Part shown: piece after piece, positions 11,001-37,448 of the stretch
Numbering within the stretch: position 1 is the first letter of the stretch
How the letters are laid out: each line of letters begins with the position of its first letter
Assembly: GCA_019119265.1 (NCBI GenBank)
Contig: DWXI01000027.1
Coordinates: 1 to 44,068 of the forward strand
Source: Candidatus Mediterraneibacter intestinigallinarum
GTDB taxonomy: Bacteria; Bacillota; Clostridia; Lachnospirales; Lachnospiraceae
Length of the DNA stretch: 44,068 bases
Reading direction: 5' to 3'
Notes under the pieces: model-generated
Seen by the model: the letters and a program-made list of their open reading frames with translations, nothing else
What the model was told of the DNA's origin: nothing
The model's database searches: none
Position numbers and translations under genes: made by a program

Positions 11001-11913
11001 GATCGCATTTATGTTCCCGGGCCAGGGAGCACAGAAAGCCGGAATGGGCAAAGATTTTTATGAACAGAGTGAAACAGCAAGGAAAGTCATCGACAAGGCG
11101 ACCGAATTGCTGGATATAGATATGAAAGCATTATGCTTTGAAGAAAATGACAAACTGGATCAGACAGAATATACACAGGCAGCGCTTGTGACTGTCTGTC
11201 TGGCAATGGAACATGTGTTAAGAGAGCGCGGACTGAAAGCTGATGTGACGGCGGGATTAAGCCTCGGCGAGTACTGCGCAATTGCATCTGCAGGCGGTAT
11301 GAGCACCGAGGACGCCATCACCACAGTGAGAAAGCGAGGTATCCTTATGCAGAATGCAGTGCCGGGCGGAAAAGGTACAATGGCGGCAGTGCTGGGCATG
11401 AAAGGCGAGGATATCGAGAAAGTCGTTGATTCGATCGACGGCGTTACGATCGCCAATTACAACTGCCCGGGCCAGATTGTTATCACAGGATGGAAAGAGA
11501 GTGTTGAGAAGGCTTCGGAGGAACTGAAAGCTGCCGGGGCAAAGAGGGTTATGCCGCTGAATGTAAGCGGACCGTTTCATTCACCAATGCTTGAAGAGGC
11601 AGGAAGAGAGCTCGGCCAAGTGCTTGCAGGTGTACAGCTCTCCAAGCTTGAGATTCCTTATGTGACAAATGTAACGGCAGAGTATGTGACAGATATCTCT
11701 GAGACAAAAGCGCTCCTTGCAACACAGGTGGCATCATCTGTGCGCTGGCAGCAGAGTGTGGAGAATATGATCGCTGACGGAGTGGATACATTCGTAGAGA
11801 TCGGGCCGGGCAGGACACTGGCAGGATTCATGCGCAAGATCAGCCGTGACGTGAAAGTGTACAATGTCGGTACATGGGAAGATGTAGACAAGGTGGTAAG
11901 TGAATTATGTTAA
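10993..11913 (+). CDS. fabD: Malonyl-CoA-ACP transacylase
   Basis: FabD loads malonyl groups onto ACP. The 306-residue protein has FPGQGAQ at the N-terminus, the nucleophile S90 in GLSLGEY, the catalytic His in GPFHSPML and the C-terminal EIGPGRTL. It overlaps fabK by eight bases and fabG by seven, so the three are translationally coupled. Confidence 0.96.
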
Positions 11914-12647
11914 ATGGAAAAGTTGCTGTAGTAACAGGCGCTTCCAGAGGAATCGGAAGAGCGATCGCCATAAAACTTGCATCCGAGGGTGCTGCAGTTG
12001 TGATCAATTACAACGGTTCTAAAGAGCGCGCTGAGGAAGTGAAAAAGGAGATTGAGGAGAACGGCGGAAAGGCCGACATCAGACAGTGCAATGTATCTGA
12101 TTTCCATGCCTGCGAAGAAATGTTCAAAGAGATCATCGCAACATTCGGCAGAGTGGATATCCTCGTAAATAACGCAGGTATTACGAGAGACGGGCTGCTC
12201 ATGAAGATGACAGAGGAAGATTATGACGCAGTTCTCGATACAAACCTGAAAGGAACATTCAACTGTATCCGTTTCGTAGCGCGCCAGATGATCAAACAGC
12301 GCGGCGGACGTATCATCAATATGGCGTCTGTATCCGGAGTGCTCGGAAATGCGGGACAGGCAAACTACTCTGCGTCAAAGGCGGGCGTGATCGGACTTAC
12401 AAAGTCTGCGGCAAGAGAACTTGCAAGCCGCGGAATTACGGTAAATGCAATTGCACCGGGATTCATCAATACAGAGATGACAGAAGTGCTCTCCGATAAA
12501 GTAAAAGAGGGAGCTGTGGCACAGATTCCGCTGGGTAAATTCGGCGAGACAGAAGATATTGCAAATGCGGCAGCATTTCTGGCAGGCGACGGGGCACGGT
12601 ATATAACAGGACAGGTGCTCAATGTAGACGGCGGAATGGCTATCTAA
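11907..12647 (+). CDS. fabG: 3-oxoacyl-ACP reductase
   Basis: FabG reduces the beta-keto group with NADPH. The 246-residue short-chain dehydrogenase has [12 protein letters not shown] for cofactor binding, [14 protein letters not shown], the YSASKAG catalytic Tyr-Lys pair and the C-terminal VDGGMAI. It overlaps fabD and ends at the edge of the large structured repeat at 12644-12843, whose stem begins within the stop codon. Confidence 0.96.
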
Positions 12648-12843
12648 AACCAACTCCTTTTATCGACAGATCCGCAGGTAACCGCATATATCATTTCTGC
12701 GGACGCGCTTTCGCTCGGGCCGGAACGCAGCGGTACATAAGGCCGCAAAGGACGCGGCCTAAGTGCCGGCGTTCCTCTACGGTCCTTAGAAACGACATAT
12801 ACGGTTACCTGCTAAACAGTCGAAAAAGGGAACTTGGTTTTAG
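12644..12843 (+). repeat. Large structured intergenic element, family A copy 1 (70-nt conserved core)
   Basis: A 200-base imperfect palindrome between fabG and fabF. Outer arms about 60 bases long (12644-12703 and 12776-12843) pair with each other, including CGCATATATC against GACATATACG. The core at 12706-12775 starts CGCTTTCGCTCGGG and holds nested stems GGAACGC/GCGTTCC, CGGTAC/GTGCCG and AGGCCGC/GCGGCCT. The same 70-base core, with compensatory changes, is found on the minus strand at 36397-36466. It has no coding potential and no T tract. Its place inside an operon means it must be transcribed. Confidence 0.8.
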
Positions 12844-12952
12844 TTGAATGTGATGCGGAAAAGGGAGCGTGATCCTGTGAAAAGCAGGAACGTGTGAGAT
12901 AGTATGGTTTGGAAGAGACGGATGGAAATCTCTGTCTCGGAAAGGGATAGAT

Positions 12953-14200
12953 TTGGATATGGAGAAGAGAAGAGTTGTAGTGACGGGGCTTGGTGCCGTG
13001 ACGCCGATCGGAAATACGGTGGATGAGTTCTGGGCCGGTATTAAGGAAGGCAAGGTCGGGATCGGACCGATCACGAAGTTTGATGCTTCTGAATTCAAGG
13101 TGCAGATTGCGGCTGAGGTGAAGGATTTTGTTGCGAAGGAGCGTATGGATTTTAAGGCAGCAAAGAGAATGGAGCCTTTTTCCCAGTATGCGGTCGCAGC
13201 TGCAAAAGAGGCATTCGAGGATTCCGGCATTGATATGGAGAAGGAAGATCCGTACAGAGTGGGAGTGATCGTAGGCTCCGGTATCGGAAGTCTGCAGTGC
13301 GTAGAAACCAATTATGAAAAGATCATGACAAAAGGGCCGAACAAAGTGAATCCACTTATGGTTCCTCTTATGATTTCCAATATGGCGGCAGGTAACATTT
13401 CCATCCAGCTCGGACTGAAAGGAAAATGTACAAACGTTGTGACAGCGTGTGCGTCAGGTACACACTGCATCGGAGATGCGCTCCGTGCGATCCAGTACGG
13501 GGATACGGACGTGATGGTTGCAGGAGGTACAGAGGCTTCGGTGTGTCCGACGGGAATCGCCGGATTTACAGCGCTGACGGCACTGTCTACAACTAACGAT
13601 CCGGAGCATGCGTCACGCCCGTTCGATAAAGACAGGGATGGATTTGTCCTTGGCGAGGGCTCCGGAATTGTAGTGCTGGAGGAACTGGAGCACGCAAAGG
13701 CAAGAGGAGCAAAGATCTACGCTGAACTTGTCGGCTATGGCGCGACAGGCGACGCATATCACATCACTTCTCCGGCTGAGGACGGTGAAGGCGCGGGAAT
13801 GGCAATGAAGCTTGCAATGCAGGAAGCGGGCGTGGCGCCGGAGCAGATCGACTACATCAACGCTCACGGAACAAGCACACACCATAACGATTTGTTTGAG
13901 ACGAAAGCCATCAAATTCGCGCTTGGCGACGCGGCAAAAAATGTTTCCATCAACTCTACAAAGTCTATGATCGGTCATCTGCTCGGCGCGGCAGGCGGGG
14001 TAGAGTTCGTAGTCTGTGTAAAGAGTATTCTGGACGGATTTATTCATCAGACAGTGGGAACAGAAAATGTAGATCCGGAGTGTGATCTTGACTATACGGT
14101 AGGCGCTCCGGTAGAGAAAGATGTAAATTATGTTCTGACGAATTCTCTAGGATTTGGAGGACATAACGCGACACTGCTGTTGAAAAAATATGAAGGTTAA
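12953..14200 (+). CDS. fabF: Beta-ketoacyl-ACP synthase II
   Basis: FabF elongates acyl-ACP chains. The 415-residue protein has C166 in TACASGTH, NAHGTSTHHND and MIGHLLGAAGG, the Cys-His-His triad. The start may be TTG at 12953, seven bases after AAAGGGA, or ATG at 12959, which would be about 13 bases away; the protein differs by two residues. It is separated from fabG by 305 bases filled by the structured element, so it may have its own expression level. Confidence 0.95.
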   Translation: MDMEKRRVVVTGLGAVTPIGNTVDEFWAGIKEGKVGIGPITKFDASEFKVQIAAEVKDFVAKERMDFKAAKRMEPFSQYAVAAAKEAFEDSGIDMEKEDPYRVGVIVGSGIGSLQCVETNYEKIMTKGPNKVNPLMVPLMISNMAAGNISIQLGLKGKCTNVVTACASGTHCIGDALRAIQYGDTDVMVAGGTEASVCPTGIAGFTALTALSTTNDPEHASRPFDKDRDGFVLGEGSGIVVLEELEHAKARGAKIYAELVGYGATGDAYHITSPAEDGEGAGMAMKLAMQEAGVAPEQIDYINAHGTSTHHNDLFETKAIKFALGDAAKNVSINSTKSMIGHLLGAAGGVEFVVCVKSILDGFIHQTVGTENVDPECDLDYTVGAPVEKDVNYVLTNSLGFGGHNATLLLKKYEG

Positions 14201-14212
14201 GAGGTGCGTGTA

Positions 14213-14692
14213 ATGAAAGTTGAACAGGTATTGGAATTAGTAAAAGCTGTTTCAGATTCTGAGCTTACAGAGTTTAAATATGAGGAAGACGGAGTGAAGC
14301 TTTCGCTTAAGAAAACGAGCGATAAAATTGTCCAGGTTCCGGCTCCGGCCGCACCGATGGCAGCGCCGGTGATCGCACCAGCAGTTATGCCGGCAGGAGC
14401 AGAGGCTCAGGCAGCAGAGGCAGCCGCACCTGCAGAAGGCGAGAACGATAAGTCGGCAGGTAATGTTGTGAAATCACCTCTTGTAGGAACATTTTATGCC
14501 GCACCGGCAGAGGACGCAGAACCTTATGTAAAAGTTGGCGACAGCGTAAAAGAAGGCCAGGTACTGGCAATTGTAGAAGCAATGAAGCTGATGAACGAGA
14601 TTGAAAGCGACTTTACAGGAACTGTAAAAGAGATTCTTGTAGAAAACGGTCAGGGCGTAGAATTCGGCCAGCCACTCTTTGTAATAAGCTAG
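14213..14692 (+). CDS. accB: Biotin carboxyl carrier protein of acetyl-CoA carboxylase
   Basis: AccB carries the biotin that shuttles CO2 between biotin carboxylase and carboxyltransferase. The 159-residue protein has an N-terminal helical region, an Ala/Pro-rich hinge (residues about 45-80) and the biotinyl domain ending with EAMKLMNEI, whose Lys is biotinylated. ATG at 14213 is preferred because GAGGTG lies seven bases before it; an upstream GTG at 14204 overlaps that ribosome site. It follows fabF by 12 bases. Confidence 0.95.
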   Translation: MKVEQVLELVKAVSDSELTEFKYEEDGVKLSLKKTSDKIVQVPAPAAPMAAPVIAPAVMPAGAEAQAAEAAAPAEGENDKSAGNVVKSPLVGTFYAAPAEDAEPYVKVGDSVKEGQVLAIVEAMKLMNEIESDFTGTVKEILVENGQGVEFGQPLFVIS

Positions 14693-14704
14693 TCCGCATG
14701 CGCT

Positions 14705-14850
14705 GGGAAACAGCCGGCGCTGTGCAGGCTCGCCTGCTGACAGCGGCGGCTGTTTCCCGGCATATGGCGACAGCCATACAGCGAGATGAAGCAGCGAAGC
14801 GGCGGAATCGAGCGCAGCAATGCACCGCGCACGCAGGGCGCGGTAGAAAG
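14705..14850 (+). repeat. Structured intergenic region with three hairpins between accB and fabZ
   Basis: GGGAAACAGCC pairs with GGCTGTTTCCC (11 bp) with an inner stem GCAGGC/GCCTGC; TATGGC-gaca-GCCATA follows; then ACCGCGC/GCGCGGT. The GC-rich block of about 145 bases has no gene: an open frame runs through it into fabZ but has no ribosome site and no similarity at its start. Its core does not match family A, so I treat it as a separate element. Confidence 0.6.
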
Positions 14851-35233: not shown

Positions 35234-35333
35234 TCAGAAAAAATACTGATTGCACAGGGCAGTGGTTGTCATCTGTCATAACAGTTACAGATGGTGCTGC
35301 GACAGCGGACTATGTGTCGAAGGGAGAAAAGAA

Positions 35334-36122
35334 ATGTCAGATCCATACAGTATACTAGGTGTGGACAGAAATGTATCAGACGAGGAGATTAAAAAGGCAT
35401 ATCGTAAATTAAGCCGAAAGTATCATCCGGATGCAAATATCAACAATCCTCATAAAGATGAGGCTGAAGCAAAGTTCAAAGAAGTACAGCAGGCTTACCA
35501 GCAGATTATGGATGAGCGCGAGCGCGGGTACACTTCGGGCGGATACGGTCAGAGCAGTTCTGGAAGCGGGCATAGTGGAAATTCATACGGAGGAAATTCA
35601 TATGATGATTACGGCCCCTTTGGAGGCTTCGGAGGATATGGACCGTTCGGTGGTTTCGGAGAAGGAGATCCGTTTGGAAACTCCGGTTCATATGGTCAGG
35701 GAAGACAGCAGAACAGCAGTCAGTCAGAAGAAGATATTCATCTGCGTGCCGCCGCAAATTATATACGCAGCGGGCACTACAGAGAAGCGCTCAATGTCCT
35801 TGACGGAATAAAGGAAAGGAGTGCGCTCTGGTATTTCTACAGTGCATCCGCCAATTCCGGGCTGGGAAATAATGTGACAGCTCTGGAACAGGCGAAAGAA
35901 GCCGTCAGACTTGAACCAGATAATACGCAGTATCAAATGCTGTTCCAGCGGCTGCAGAACGGCGGATCATGGTATCAGCAGCGGCAGAGTACATATGGCT
36001 ATCCGGGTTCATTTGATACGAGCTGTTGTGCGAAGCTTTGTATAGCGAATCTACTGTGCAATCTCTGCTGCGGAGGCAGCGGACTGTGCTGTGGCGGATA
36101 TGGCGGCGGGTACTATATATAA
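35334..36122 (+). CDS. J-domain (DnaJ-type) protein with Gly-rich linker, TPR-like helices and Cys-rich tail
   Basis: A 262-residue protein. Residues 1-65 are a J domain with the HPD motif at 31-33, which stimulates an Hsp70. A Gly/Ser/Phe-rich linker follows (residues about 68-130, with [18 protein letters not shown]). Residues about 140-210 have TPR-like helices ([21 protein letters not shown]). The C-terminal 35 residues hold eight cysteines in [21 protein letters not shown] and [12 protein letters not shown] at 35334 follows GGGAGAAAAG. The tail could be a metal-binding or lipidated anchor. It is not the housekeeping DnaJ (no zinc-finger domain of four CxxCxGxG). Confidence 0.85.
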
Positions 36123-36363: not shown

Positions 36364-36494
36364 GCCGGGAGACAGATATTGTGTACGCACCGTAGAGTAA
36401 CGCCGGCACTTGGAGCGCACTTTTTGCGCTCCTATGTACCGCTGCGTTACGACCCGAGCGAAAGCGGGTGCGCTAGCAATACCTGTCTCCCGGC
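36364..36494 (-). repeat. Large structured intergenic element, family A copy 2
   Basis: Outer arms GCCGGGAGACAGATATTG (from 36364) and CAATACCTGTCTCCCGGC (to 36494) pair, with four mismatches over 28 bases. The core at 36397-36466, read on the minus strand, starts CGCTTTCGCTCGGG and has the same length of 70 as at 12706-12775. Its terminal stem is GGAGCGC/GCGCTCC where copy 1 has AGGCCGC/GCGGCCT, and the next stem is GTAACGC/GCGTTAC where copy 1 has GGAACGC/GCGTTCC: four base pairs changed on both sides. In both copies the core is read in the direction of the gene that ends before it. Confidence 0.8.
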
Positions 36495-36524: not shown

Positions 36525-37397
36525 TTATCTGCTCCGGACCGCTCCGATTCCCAGACCGCCCGGCCCCACATGTGTTCCGATACTCATTGTGAGCGGAAAG
36601 TATACAAGTTCCATATCAGGAAAGTTCTTTCTCATTTCATCTTTAAATTCTTCCAGCTTATCAGGATCCATCATCGTATTGGCGATACCGACTTTTAGAA
36701 GGCCTTGTTTCCGCAAGTAGGAAAGTCTGGAGGCAATGTCTGATTTTACGGCTTCCAGCATGACGCGGAATGCAGATTTCATTCCTCTTGCCTTGGCGTA
36801 AGAATCTAACTTGTCACCCTGTATGGTGAGAACCGGTTTCAATTTAAGAATTGTTCCAAGAGCAGCGGCAGCTGCTGTGATACGTCCTCCCTTTTTCAGG
36901 TATTCTAATGTATCTACTGCAATATAGATAGTAGCATCCATGGCTTCCTTTTCGAGGATATTTTTGATTTCACATGCAGTCTTTCCCTCATCAGCTAATG
37001 TTTTTGCATCCAGTACTGATAATGCCTGGGTAACGGAGATACGATGATTGTCAACTACGTACACTCGGTCTTTATAAGGCTCTTCTTCGGCAAGCAGAAG
37101 CGCGGTCTGGCATGTGTTGCTCAGCCCGGAGGACATAGGGATGAATACAATCTCATCATATGTTGCGAGAAGATGAGACCACATGTCAGCCACATCCCCT
37201 GGAGACGGCTGGGATGTCGTAATGACAGAACCGGAGGTCTGTTTTCGATAGAATTCCTCTGAAGTGATATCGATTCCTTCAAAATATGTTTTGCCATCAA
37301 TGATGATGGGCATGGGCAGAATATGAATTCCGTAATTGGATTCTTCTGCAGGCATGATCCCGCAGTTGCTGTCTGCCATGATCGCGGTCCGCGGCAT
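36525..37397 (-). CDS. DegV-family fatty-acid-binding protein
   Basis: A 290-residue protein of the DegV/FakB type: DSNCGIMPAEESNYGIHILPMPI, TSQPSPGDVADMW and a fatty-acid-binding fold with the conserved STGLSNT-like SSGLSNT segment. FakB proteins present fatty acids to the kinase FakA for phosphorylation. ATG at 37397 has GGAGGGG six bases upstream. It runs divergently from the TetR gene, with a shared operator candidate over its -10 box. Confidence 0.9.
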   Translation of the reverse strand: MPRTAIMADSNCGIMPAEESNYGIHILPMPIIIDGKTYFEGIDITSEEFYRKQTSGSVITTSQPSPGDVADMWSHLLATYDEIVFIPMSSGLSNTCQTALLLAEEEPYKDRVYVVDNHRISVTQALSVLDAKTLADEGKTACEIKNILEKEAMDATIYIAVDTLEYLKKGGRITAAAAALGTILKLKPVLTIQGDKLDSYAKARGMKSAFRVMLEAVKSDIASRLSYLRKQGLLKVGIANTMMDPDKLEEFKDEMRKNFPDMELVYFPLTMSIGTHVGPGGLGIGAVRSR

Positions 37398-37448
37398 ATT
37401 ATCCCCTCCTGAAACCTTATTTTTCATATTTTAATTTGATTGACCGTT

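Follow-up and report, generated by a model that had tools for sequence, protein, structure and literature searches.

Type A, a candidate family of miniature mobile DNA elements with a covarying hairpin core in Lachnospiraceae

Two intergenic sequences in a 44,068-nt stretch of DNA from Candidatus Mediterraneibacter intestinigallinarum (contig DWXI01000027.1; hereafter the window) are, with a probability that we put at about 0.6, members of a single family of miniature mobile DNA elements, named type A, whose functional form would be a DNA hairpin. Type A is common in the genomes of a major gut family and is absent from Rfam. An earlier note on the window, made from the letters alone, had described a structured core with compensatory base changes in both sequences, and had offered two readings of it, a structured RNA or mRNA-stability module and a mobile palindrome. 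Here, we compare the two copies with further copies in related genomes, describe the sites at which these are present or missing, and weigh the mobile DNA reading against its rivals.

The cores of the two copies are located at 12706-12775 on the plus strand (copy 1) and at 36397-36466 on the minus strand (copy 2). Read directly, each is 70 nt long and both contain CGCTTTCGCTCGGG, AACGCAGCGGTACATA and AAGTGCCGGCGTT, as had been reported. The compensatory changes claimed for the stems were also confirmed: AGGCCGC/GCGGCCT in one copy corresponds to GGAGCGC/GCGCTCC in the other, with three pairs changed, and GGAACGC/GCGTTCC to GTAACGC/GCGTTAC, with one, and each of these changes is compensated. 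The outer arms are, as claimed, self-complementary in each copy and different in sequence between the copies. Those of copy 1 consist of 59 nt each, 12646-12704 on the left and 12782-12840 on the right, with 75% complementarity, while those of copy 2 consist of 28 nt each, 36467-36494 on the left of the element strand and 36364-36391 on the right, with 82%. Copy 1 as a whole can be described as a palindrome of 195 bp, at whose tip lies an 88-nt core. Its left arm starts at the stop codon of fabG (11907-12647, plus strand; TIGR01830, 353.5 bits, cut-off 297.75), where the open reading frame (ORF) ends at 12647, and its downstream neighbour is fabF (12953-14200, plus strand; TIGR03150, 622.5 bits, cut-off 493.75). 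Copy 2 lies 3' of the stop codon of a DegV-family gene (36525-37427, minus strand; PF02645), whose ORF ends at 36525, and its convergent neighbour is a DnaJ-domain gene (35250-36122, plus strand; PF00226).

The conserved core, as delimited by our covariance model R2, comprises 12699-12786 in copy 1 (plus strand, 109.9 bits) and 36386-36473 in copy 2 (minus strand, 108.0 bits), both of which are among the training sequences of R2. It is composed, in order, of stem P2, a small hairpin GC-TTTC-GC, stem P3, a bulge AG or AA, stem P4, an ATA/AA internal loop, and a variable stem P5 with its loop. In copy 1, P2 pairs 12701-12704 with 12782-12785, and the small hairpin at the junction (12707-12714) has two pairs and a conserved loop. 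P3 pairs 12722-12728 with 12769-12775 and is followed by the conserved 2-nt bulge AG (12729-12730). P4, which pairs 12731-12736 with 12763-12768 and includes one T·G pair (model pair 17), is separated by the internal loop (12737-12739 and 12761-12762) from P5, a highly variable stem that pairs 12740-12746 with 12754-12760. Both copies are predicted to fold with unusual stability, with z-scores of -7.6 and -8.5 when folded as RNA and of -6.4 and -7.8 when folded as DNA, and in each case none of 200 shuffles was as stable. A loose pattern of the core matches the window exactly twice, at the two copies, and has no match in 100 shuffles.

The statement that the core belongs to no named family holds for Rfam. 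At gathering thresholds, the window yields 2 tRNAs only, and a search of 12600-12900 with E-values up to 10 gave a single chance-level microRNA match, with 13 bits against a threshold of 50. Identity as an Rfam family was thus rejected, as no curated covariance model matches copy 1. Elsewhere in the window, at 14692-14771, there is an inverted repeat of 32 nt with 81% complementarity and a 16-nt gap, located at the junction of two ORFs.

In an alignment of 53 distinct sequences, which was fitted to the structure, 97.0% of the cells are paired, as compared with 34-37% when the partners are slid, and double changes are found at 25 of the 26 core pairs. A covariation score as high as the observed one was reached in 0 of 500 shuffles. 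Double changes account for 333 cells and one-sided changes for 15, of which 11 fall at one pair. When the same 53 sequences were aligned with MAFFT and folded with RNAalifold, 1229 cells were Watson-Crick, 26 were G·U and 17 were A·C, with another 51 of other kinds. The compensation in the stems is thus real and far above the control. Among the unpaired positions, the 2-nt bulge, the internal loop, the junction bases and the loop of the small hairpin are conserved, and this sequence conservation points to selection on the core.

Further copies are found in the same genome, whose absence the earlier note had named as what would count against it. The whole-genome covariance search that it had proposed gave 14 copies with R2, of which 13 are strong and one scores 48 bits; a further match (E-value 0.015) is the opposite strand of this weak copy and was not counted. 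Blastn alone finds 12 copies, in 14 matches of which two are a copy's own arms. Among 25 Mediterraneibacter genomes, 15 have from 2 to 41 matches and 10 have none. Type A was found in at least 105 of 299 sampled Lachnospiraceae genera and in 0 of 16 genomes from other families of the same order. A second model, run over 391 genomes of the class, for which we have no breakdown by family, matched 11, all of them Lachnospiraceae. Copy counts in these two surveys are lower bounds, at most 14 and 11 candidates, respectively, having been scored per genome, and genomes without a match may be incomplete. In a pattern scan of named genomes, the 80 stretches listed, of at least 119, include Mediterraneibacter, Roseburia porci, Coprococcus catus, Anaerobium acetethylicum, Acetatifactor, Blautia and unnamed Lachnospiraceae; titles naming Gastranaerophilales and Muribaculum belong to one series of metagenome-assembled genomes and may be mislabelled. 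A literature search, poor in subscription journals, found no report of type A.

One indication of mobility comes from a close relative, genome G020, whose loci match Mediterraneibacter catenae SW178. Fourteen of its copies, taken from 20 fetched and 26 matched, lie at different genes and have a median identity of 95% over 200 nt, as compared with 26%, the chance level, for the genes upstream of them; copies within one genome are not independent events. Among 30 congeneric loci at the fabG-fabF site, the whole core is present in 10 and the 5' half only in 1, while 19 have neither half. In five loci without the core, the two genes are separated by about 25-28 nt. Copies at this site in four other loci (L112, L124, L128, L130) have arms unlike those of the window copy, and G020 (L108) has kept the right arm there, while the left arm and the core are missing. 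Behind degV, within the 250 nt inspected, type A is found in 2 of 30 fetched loci (L137, L138); one genome without it (G350) has 5 nt between what appear to be two stop codons, and another (G004, whose loci match Candidatus M. surreyensis) has a plain short hairpin. Upstream of ileS, where 30 loci were compared, the arms of 23 minus and 17 plus copies could be recovered, and some loci have no copy at all. No target-site duplication was established, the orthologous sites compared being too diverged. The variable copy number, the near-identical copies at different genes and the relatives without the element support the mobile palindrome that had been one of the two options proposed. In a separate locus (L093, 938-1399), three type A copies with identical model scores lie in tandem with a period of 187 bp; the loci of one further genome of the genus, G012, match Candidatus M. 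merdavium.

Many copies lie at a preferred distance behind a stop codon. Position was scored for 168 copies with 600-nt flanks, with ORFs in place of annotated genes. In 133 of them, the copy and its left ORF share a strand; 107 of these are within 0-120 nt of its stop, and in 75 the core is 41-64 nt behind it, while 11 of the 133 distances are negative, so that some ORFs are spurious. Within the genus, G020 set aside, the core is at 41-64 nt for 53 of 92 same-strand upstream genes. In G020 itself, 14 of 19 copies have the core 49-56 nt behind the stop, as do 9 of 13 in genome G002, and by eye a shared leader begins at the stop or within a few nucleotides of it in most copies of these two genomes. 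In tandem contexts, the coding orientation is favoured 35 to 10 in the genus without G020, whereas other genera have no orientation bias (14 versus 13). Short intergenic gaps and the purging of insertions into genes may explain part of this proximity to stops, but not the exact docking.

This location, together with the T-rich tract that follows several of the stems, would suit a long, bidirectional terminator with many separate origins, an explanation to which we give scarcely any credence. Copy 1 is located between two fab genes on the same strand, and the core exceeds by far, in size and in conservation, what termination requires. A terminator scan, which allows loops of 3-8 nt only and would miss a hairpin tipped by the type A core, finds 0 sites at copy 1 and 1 at copy 2, while shuffles have a mean of 0.7.

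Hairpins of other kinds were also seen behind stop codons. At several orthologous sites, genome G000 holds other hairpins with a leader similar to that of type A. One kind in G000, with a core around CATGCCGGCCCGCT ... CGGAACGCTCCTGCC, forms inverted pairs about 670 bp apart (L284 1501-2180, L290 1501-2183, L303 1501-2176) and shares the post-stop leader ATTCGTGTTTGTT with type A. A third kind in the same genome, around CTTCCGGCTCCGGTTAC (L274, L257, L275, L276), lies behind stops where G020 has type A. Near one of these G000 sites, there is a glycine riboswitch (L257 351-515, minus strand).

Type A could also be a structured RNA: a module, shared by the 3'-UTRs of many mRNAs, that halts decay, ends transcription or is bound by an RNA-binding protein, and whose fold is selected in the mRNA. 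The placement of the genus copies on the coding strand just 3' of stops, the very stable fold and the conserved unpaired bases all agree with such a module. So does model pair 17, which in 170 distinct sequences, taken from 204 matches, is T·G in 74 and otherwise alternates with T-A and C-G, as an RNA helix would. However, scarcely any other pair tolerates G·U. Outside pair 17, G·T is rarer in these 170 sequences than A·C (22 versus 42, the C·A cells of pair 19 being omitted), and 42 distinct sequences from other genera have 1039 Watson-Crick cells, 11 G·U and 13 A·C. Since a model search is expected to prefer G·U to A·C, any bias of the search runs opposite to the observed scarcity.

The outer arms, which were aligned using Watson-Crick matches only, likewise have no preference for G·U among their mismatches on the transcribed strand. 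In 87 3'-UTR copies, isolated mismatches with three paired neighbours on each side comprise 21 GU, 19 AC and 23 other, and with two paired neighbours 29, 38 and 45; all 161 copies used give 36 GU, 51 AC and 45 other. Counted in mRNA orientation, many mismatches at ileS being shared by descent, the minus copies there have 6 GU and 5 AC; in the plus copies (L327-L354), A·C is found 14 times and G·U 2 times.

For comparison with an RNA of the same genus, we used the leader upstream of ileS, of which 25 of 29 extracts were kept and four over-long ones left out. By eye this leader (L327-L356) is T-box-like, and no Rfam model matches it at gathering thresholds in 20 loci. It is rich in G·U, which makes up 194 of its 1150 standard cells. 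Departures from the commonest pair are quoted at ileS because, when RNAalifold is applied to the small set of plus copies, predicted pairs foreign to the type A fold hold 25 of the 28 G·U cells. These departures comprise 55 Watson-Crick, 31 G·U, 10 A·C and 15 other in the leader, as compared with 32, 3, 6 and 6 in the type A plus copies and 48, 7, 5 and 12 in the minus copies; the fold of the leader likewise comes from RNAalifold, a program that accepts G·U, and the contrast is indicative rather than exact. Furthermore, the second ileS copy is antisense to ileS, orientation is unbiased outside the genus, the gene partners vary, and 10 of the 25 congeners have no match.

Of the features expected of a cis-acting structured RNA, type A thus has conserved unpaired bases and lacks tolerance of G·U except at pair 17. 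We consider an RNA module improbable, and the proposal of a structured RNA or mRNA-stability module is unsupported by compensation that is almost free of G·U and by arm mismatches that have no preference for it. The near-absence of G·U speaks against a module of the mRNA and in favour of a fold that acts, or is copied, as DNA; on a plain reading, the fold would not be kept by selection on mRNA.

The outer arms pair extensively. Their self-complementarity was scored in 177 distinct copies with 110-nt flanks, and it reaches 15 or more in 152 of them, as compared with 9 of 177 when the right flank is taken from another copy. The median arm has 36 Watson-Crick pairs, and arm sequences differ widely between copies. 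This pairing need not be selected: template switching during replication could keep correcting one arm from the other, leaving only the core constrained. Such correction accounts for the wobble-free compensation and for block changes of whole arm segments, which are seen by eye, and in the available part of PMC8794818 the mechanism is described for RNA genes, where switching between hairpin arms can create several compensatory changes per event. However, the conserved 2-nt bulge, internal loop and junction bases need selection; the core stems covary throughout as well, and the arms of 25 of the 177 copies have decayed to scores below 15, which indicates that correction is incomplete. We regard an unselected arm fold as unlikely, though it is a rival to be taken seriously. 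The claim of the earlier note that selection on folding best explains the compensation was for this reason too strong, as template switching also yields compensation in the available text of PMC8794818, while its part concerning the core is supported by the conserved unpaired bases.

A pair of genomes of the genus bears on how arms change. Upstream of ileS, both copies have different arms in G359 (L328) and in G000 (L327), while the plus core is the same. The ileS genes of the two are nearly identical (given as 100% over 600 nt; 1074 bits, as compared with 1083 for the match to self). The arm types of both genomes are also found in other species, so that exchange between species is likely there. 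What had appeared to be rewritten arms looks in part like recombination between species, and rewriting stays a candidate.

We identified no mobiliser, whether a transposase, a reverse transcriptase or another protein, the protein association tested being that of Y1 transposases. A REP/RAYT system, in which a Y1 (HUH) transposase would move type A as a large REP, is suggested by intergenic, palindromic copies in inverted pairs and in mosaics with other repeats, and by the presence of Y1 in 15 of 15 element-bearing genomes of the genus, as compared with 7 of 10 without the element. Over 299 genera, however, the association runs in the negative direction, with Y1 in 54 of 105 genera with the element and in 121 of 194 without it (Fisher p 0.085), and no Y1 match was found in 14 of 25 other genera having 13 or more scored copies. 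The RAYT of the genus (NF047646, 71.9 bits, cut-off 80) is flanked at 3 of the 4 loci examined (L315, L316, L321) by its own short palindrome GGGGACGTAGT..., which is unrelated to type A. On these indirect tests, the different palindrome and the lack of a positive association, RAYT was rejected as the mobiliser, and we consider the REP/RAYT explanation very unlikely. The RAYT-like gene with its flanking palindromes GGGGACGTAGTAAAATT (L315 930-1893, L316 985-1942, L321 820-1823) represents an unrelated REP system in the same genus.

A gene-carrying copy of type A was also sought, and none was found in the fetched loci, where 226 of 247 distinct 5' half-motifs have a near 3' half and the other 21 were read individually. 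An apparently nested copy (L213) was rejected as an autonomous element, being a tandem partial duplication. Inverted pairs enclose ORFs for a DUF3879 protein, an alpha/beta hydrolase and a leucine-rich-repeat protein (L087, L088, L090); the DDE transposase enclosed in L089 is a single case and was taken as an inserted IS rather than as the mobiliser. Carriage by phages or plasmids was rejected as well: a search with copy 1 against 50,697 phage and 72,556 plasmid records gave no match, and the type A pattern is present on 2 viral contigs only.

A DNA hairpin, single-stranded or extruded, would be the functional form of type A in the mechanism that we propose. Its apical core would be recognised by a putative protein that copies or moves the element, and Watson-Crick pairing of the core and arms might be kept by selection at this recognition step, by arm-to-arm template switching, or by both. 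The Mediterraneibacter unit is often placed directly behind a stop codon, where the gene is spared and the element becomes a passenger of the 3'-UTR. Effects on mRNA ends, stability or ribosome release may follow as side effects, and would not be what preserves the fold. More speculatively, type A and at least two other kinds of hairpin that have the same post-stop leader in this genus could form a class of mobile DNA whose recognition is at the hairpin tip, and which is independent of Y1, docks at stops and has its arms remade at each site; we offer this as a tentative suggestion that is probably wrong in some part. If true, non-coding DNA would have in such a class a new means of copying itself, and the process might be linked to the termination of translation or to an intermediate that is single-stranded. 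Functional RNA folds are, as a standard, proved by covariation, and type A, whose covariation is extreme and nearly wobble-free and which looks DNA-borne, provides a test case for distinguishing RNA selection from folding or template switching at the level of DNA. Located directly behind genes such as fabG, it may affect their expression, and it offers a way in to a putative mobiliser.

Several known systems resemble type A in part. In MITEs, conservation is found at the ends, to which the transposase binds; type A shares with them near-identical copies at unrelated sites and relatives with element-free sites, but it is conserved at the tip and its arms are variable. Integron attC sites are folded single-strand DNA that is recognised by structure and has variable stems, but by eye no cassette arrays or R/L boxes were noticed in type A. 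The Efa repeats of Enterococcus faecalis and the Ype repeats of Yersinia are, in the available part of PMC1590033, larger than REPs, foldable, and prefer the 3' ends of coding sequences; a conserved core, variable arms and wobble-free covariation are absent from the descriptions in that part, so that type A is set apart from them by description only. ERIC/IRU (RU) are given as intergenic mobile repeats of 103-168 bp in the consulted portion of PMC2759123. REPs, as far as described in the extract of PMC3733652, are 20-40 bp long and tagged GTAG or CGTC, and their termini can provide the stop codon; in the extract of PMC12306157, 446 of the 4,072 REPs of E. coli lie no more than 15 nt from stop codons. 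Unlike these, copy 1 is a palindrome of 195 bp with its 88-nt core, and type A has no link to Y1 transposases. GTAG is not conserved across the type A family, and the CTACGG columns vary among genera. Type A thus has the intergenic 3'-end position of a REP/RAYT system, while neither a 20-40 bp palindrome tagged GTAG or CGTC nor mobility by RAYT was found. We file it neither as a REP nor as a structured RNA because the defining features of these were tested and did not hold. Still, REP/BIME/REPIN elements of E. coli and Pseudomonas, as outlined in the extracts available, are like type A in being intergenic and palindromic, in forming inverted pairs and mosaics, and in lying, in some cases, near stop codons. 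Its conserved tip, its variable arms and the lack of an identified transposase set it apart from them. We regard type A as a variant of the mobile palindromic repeats, near in kind to REP/BIME and to the larger palindromic repeats.
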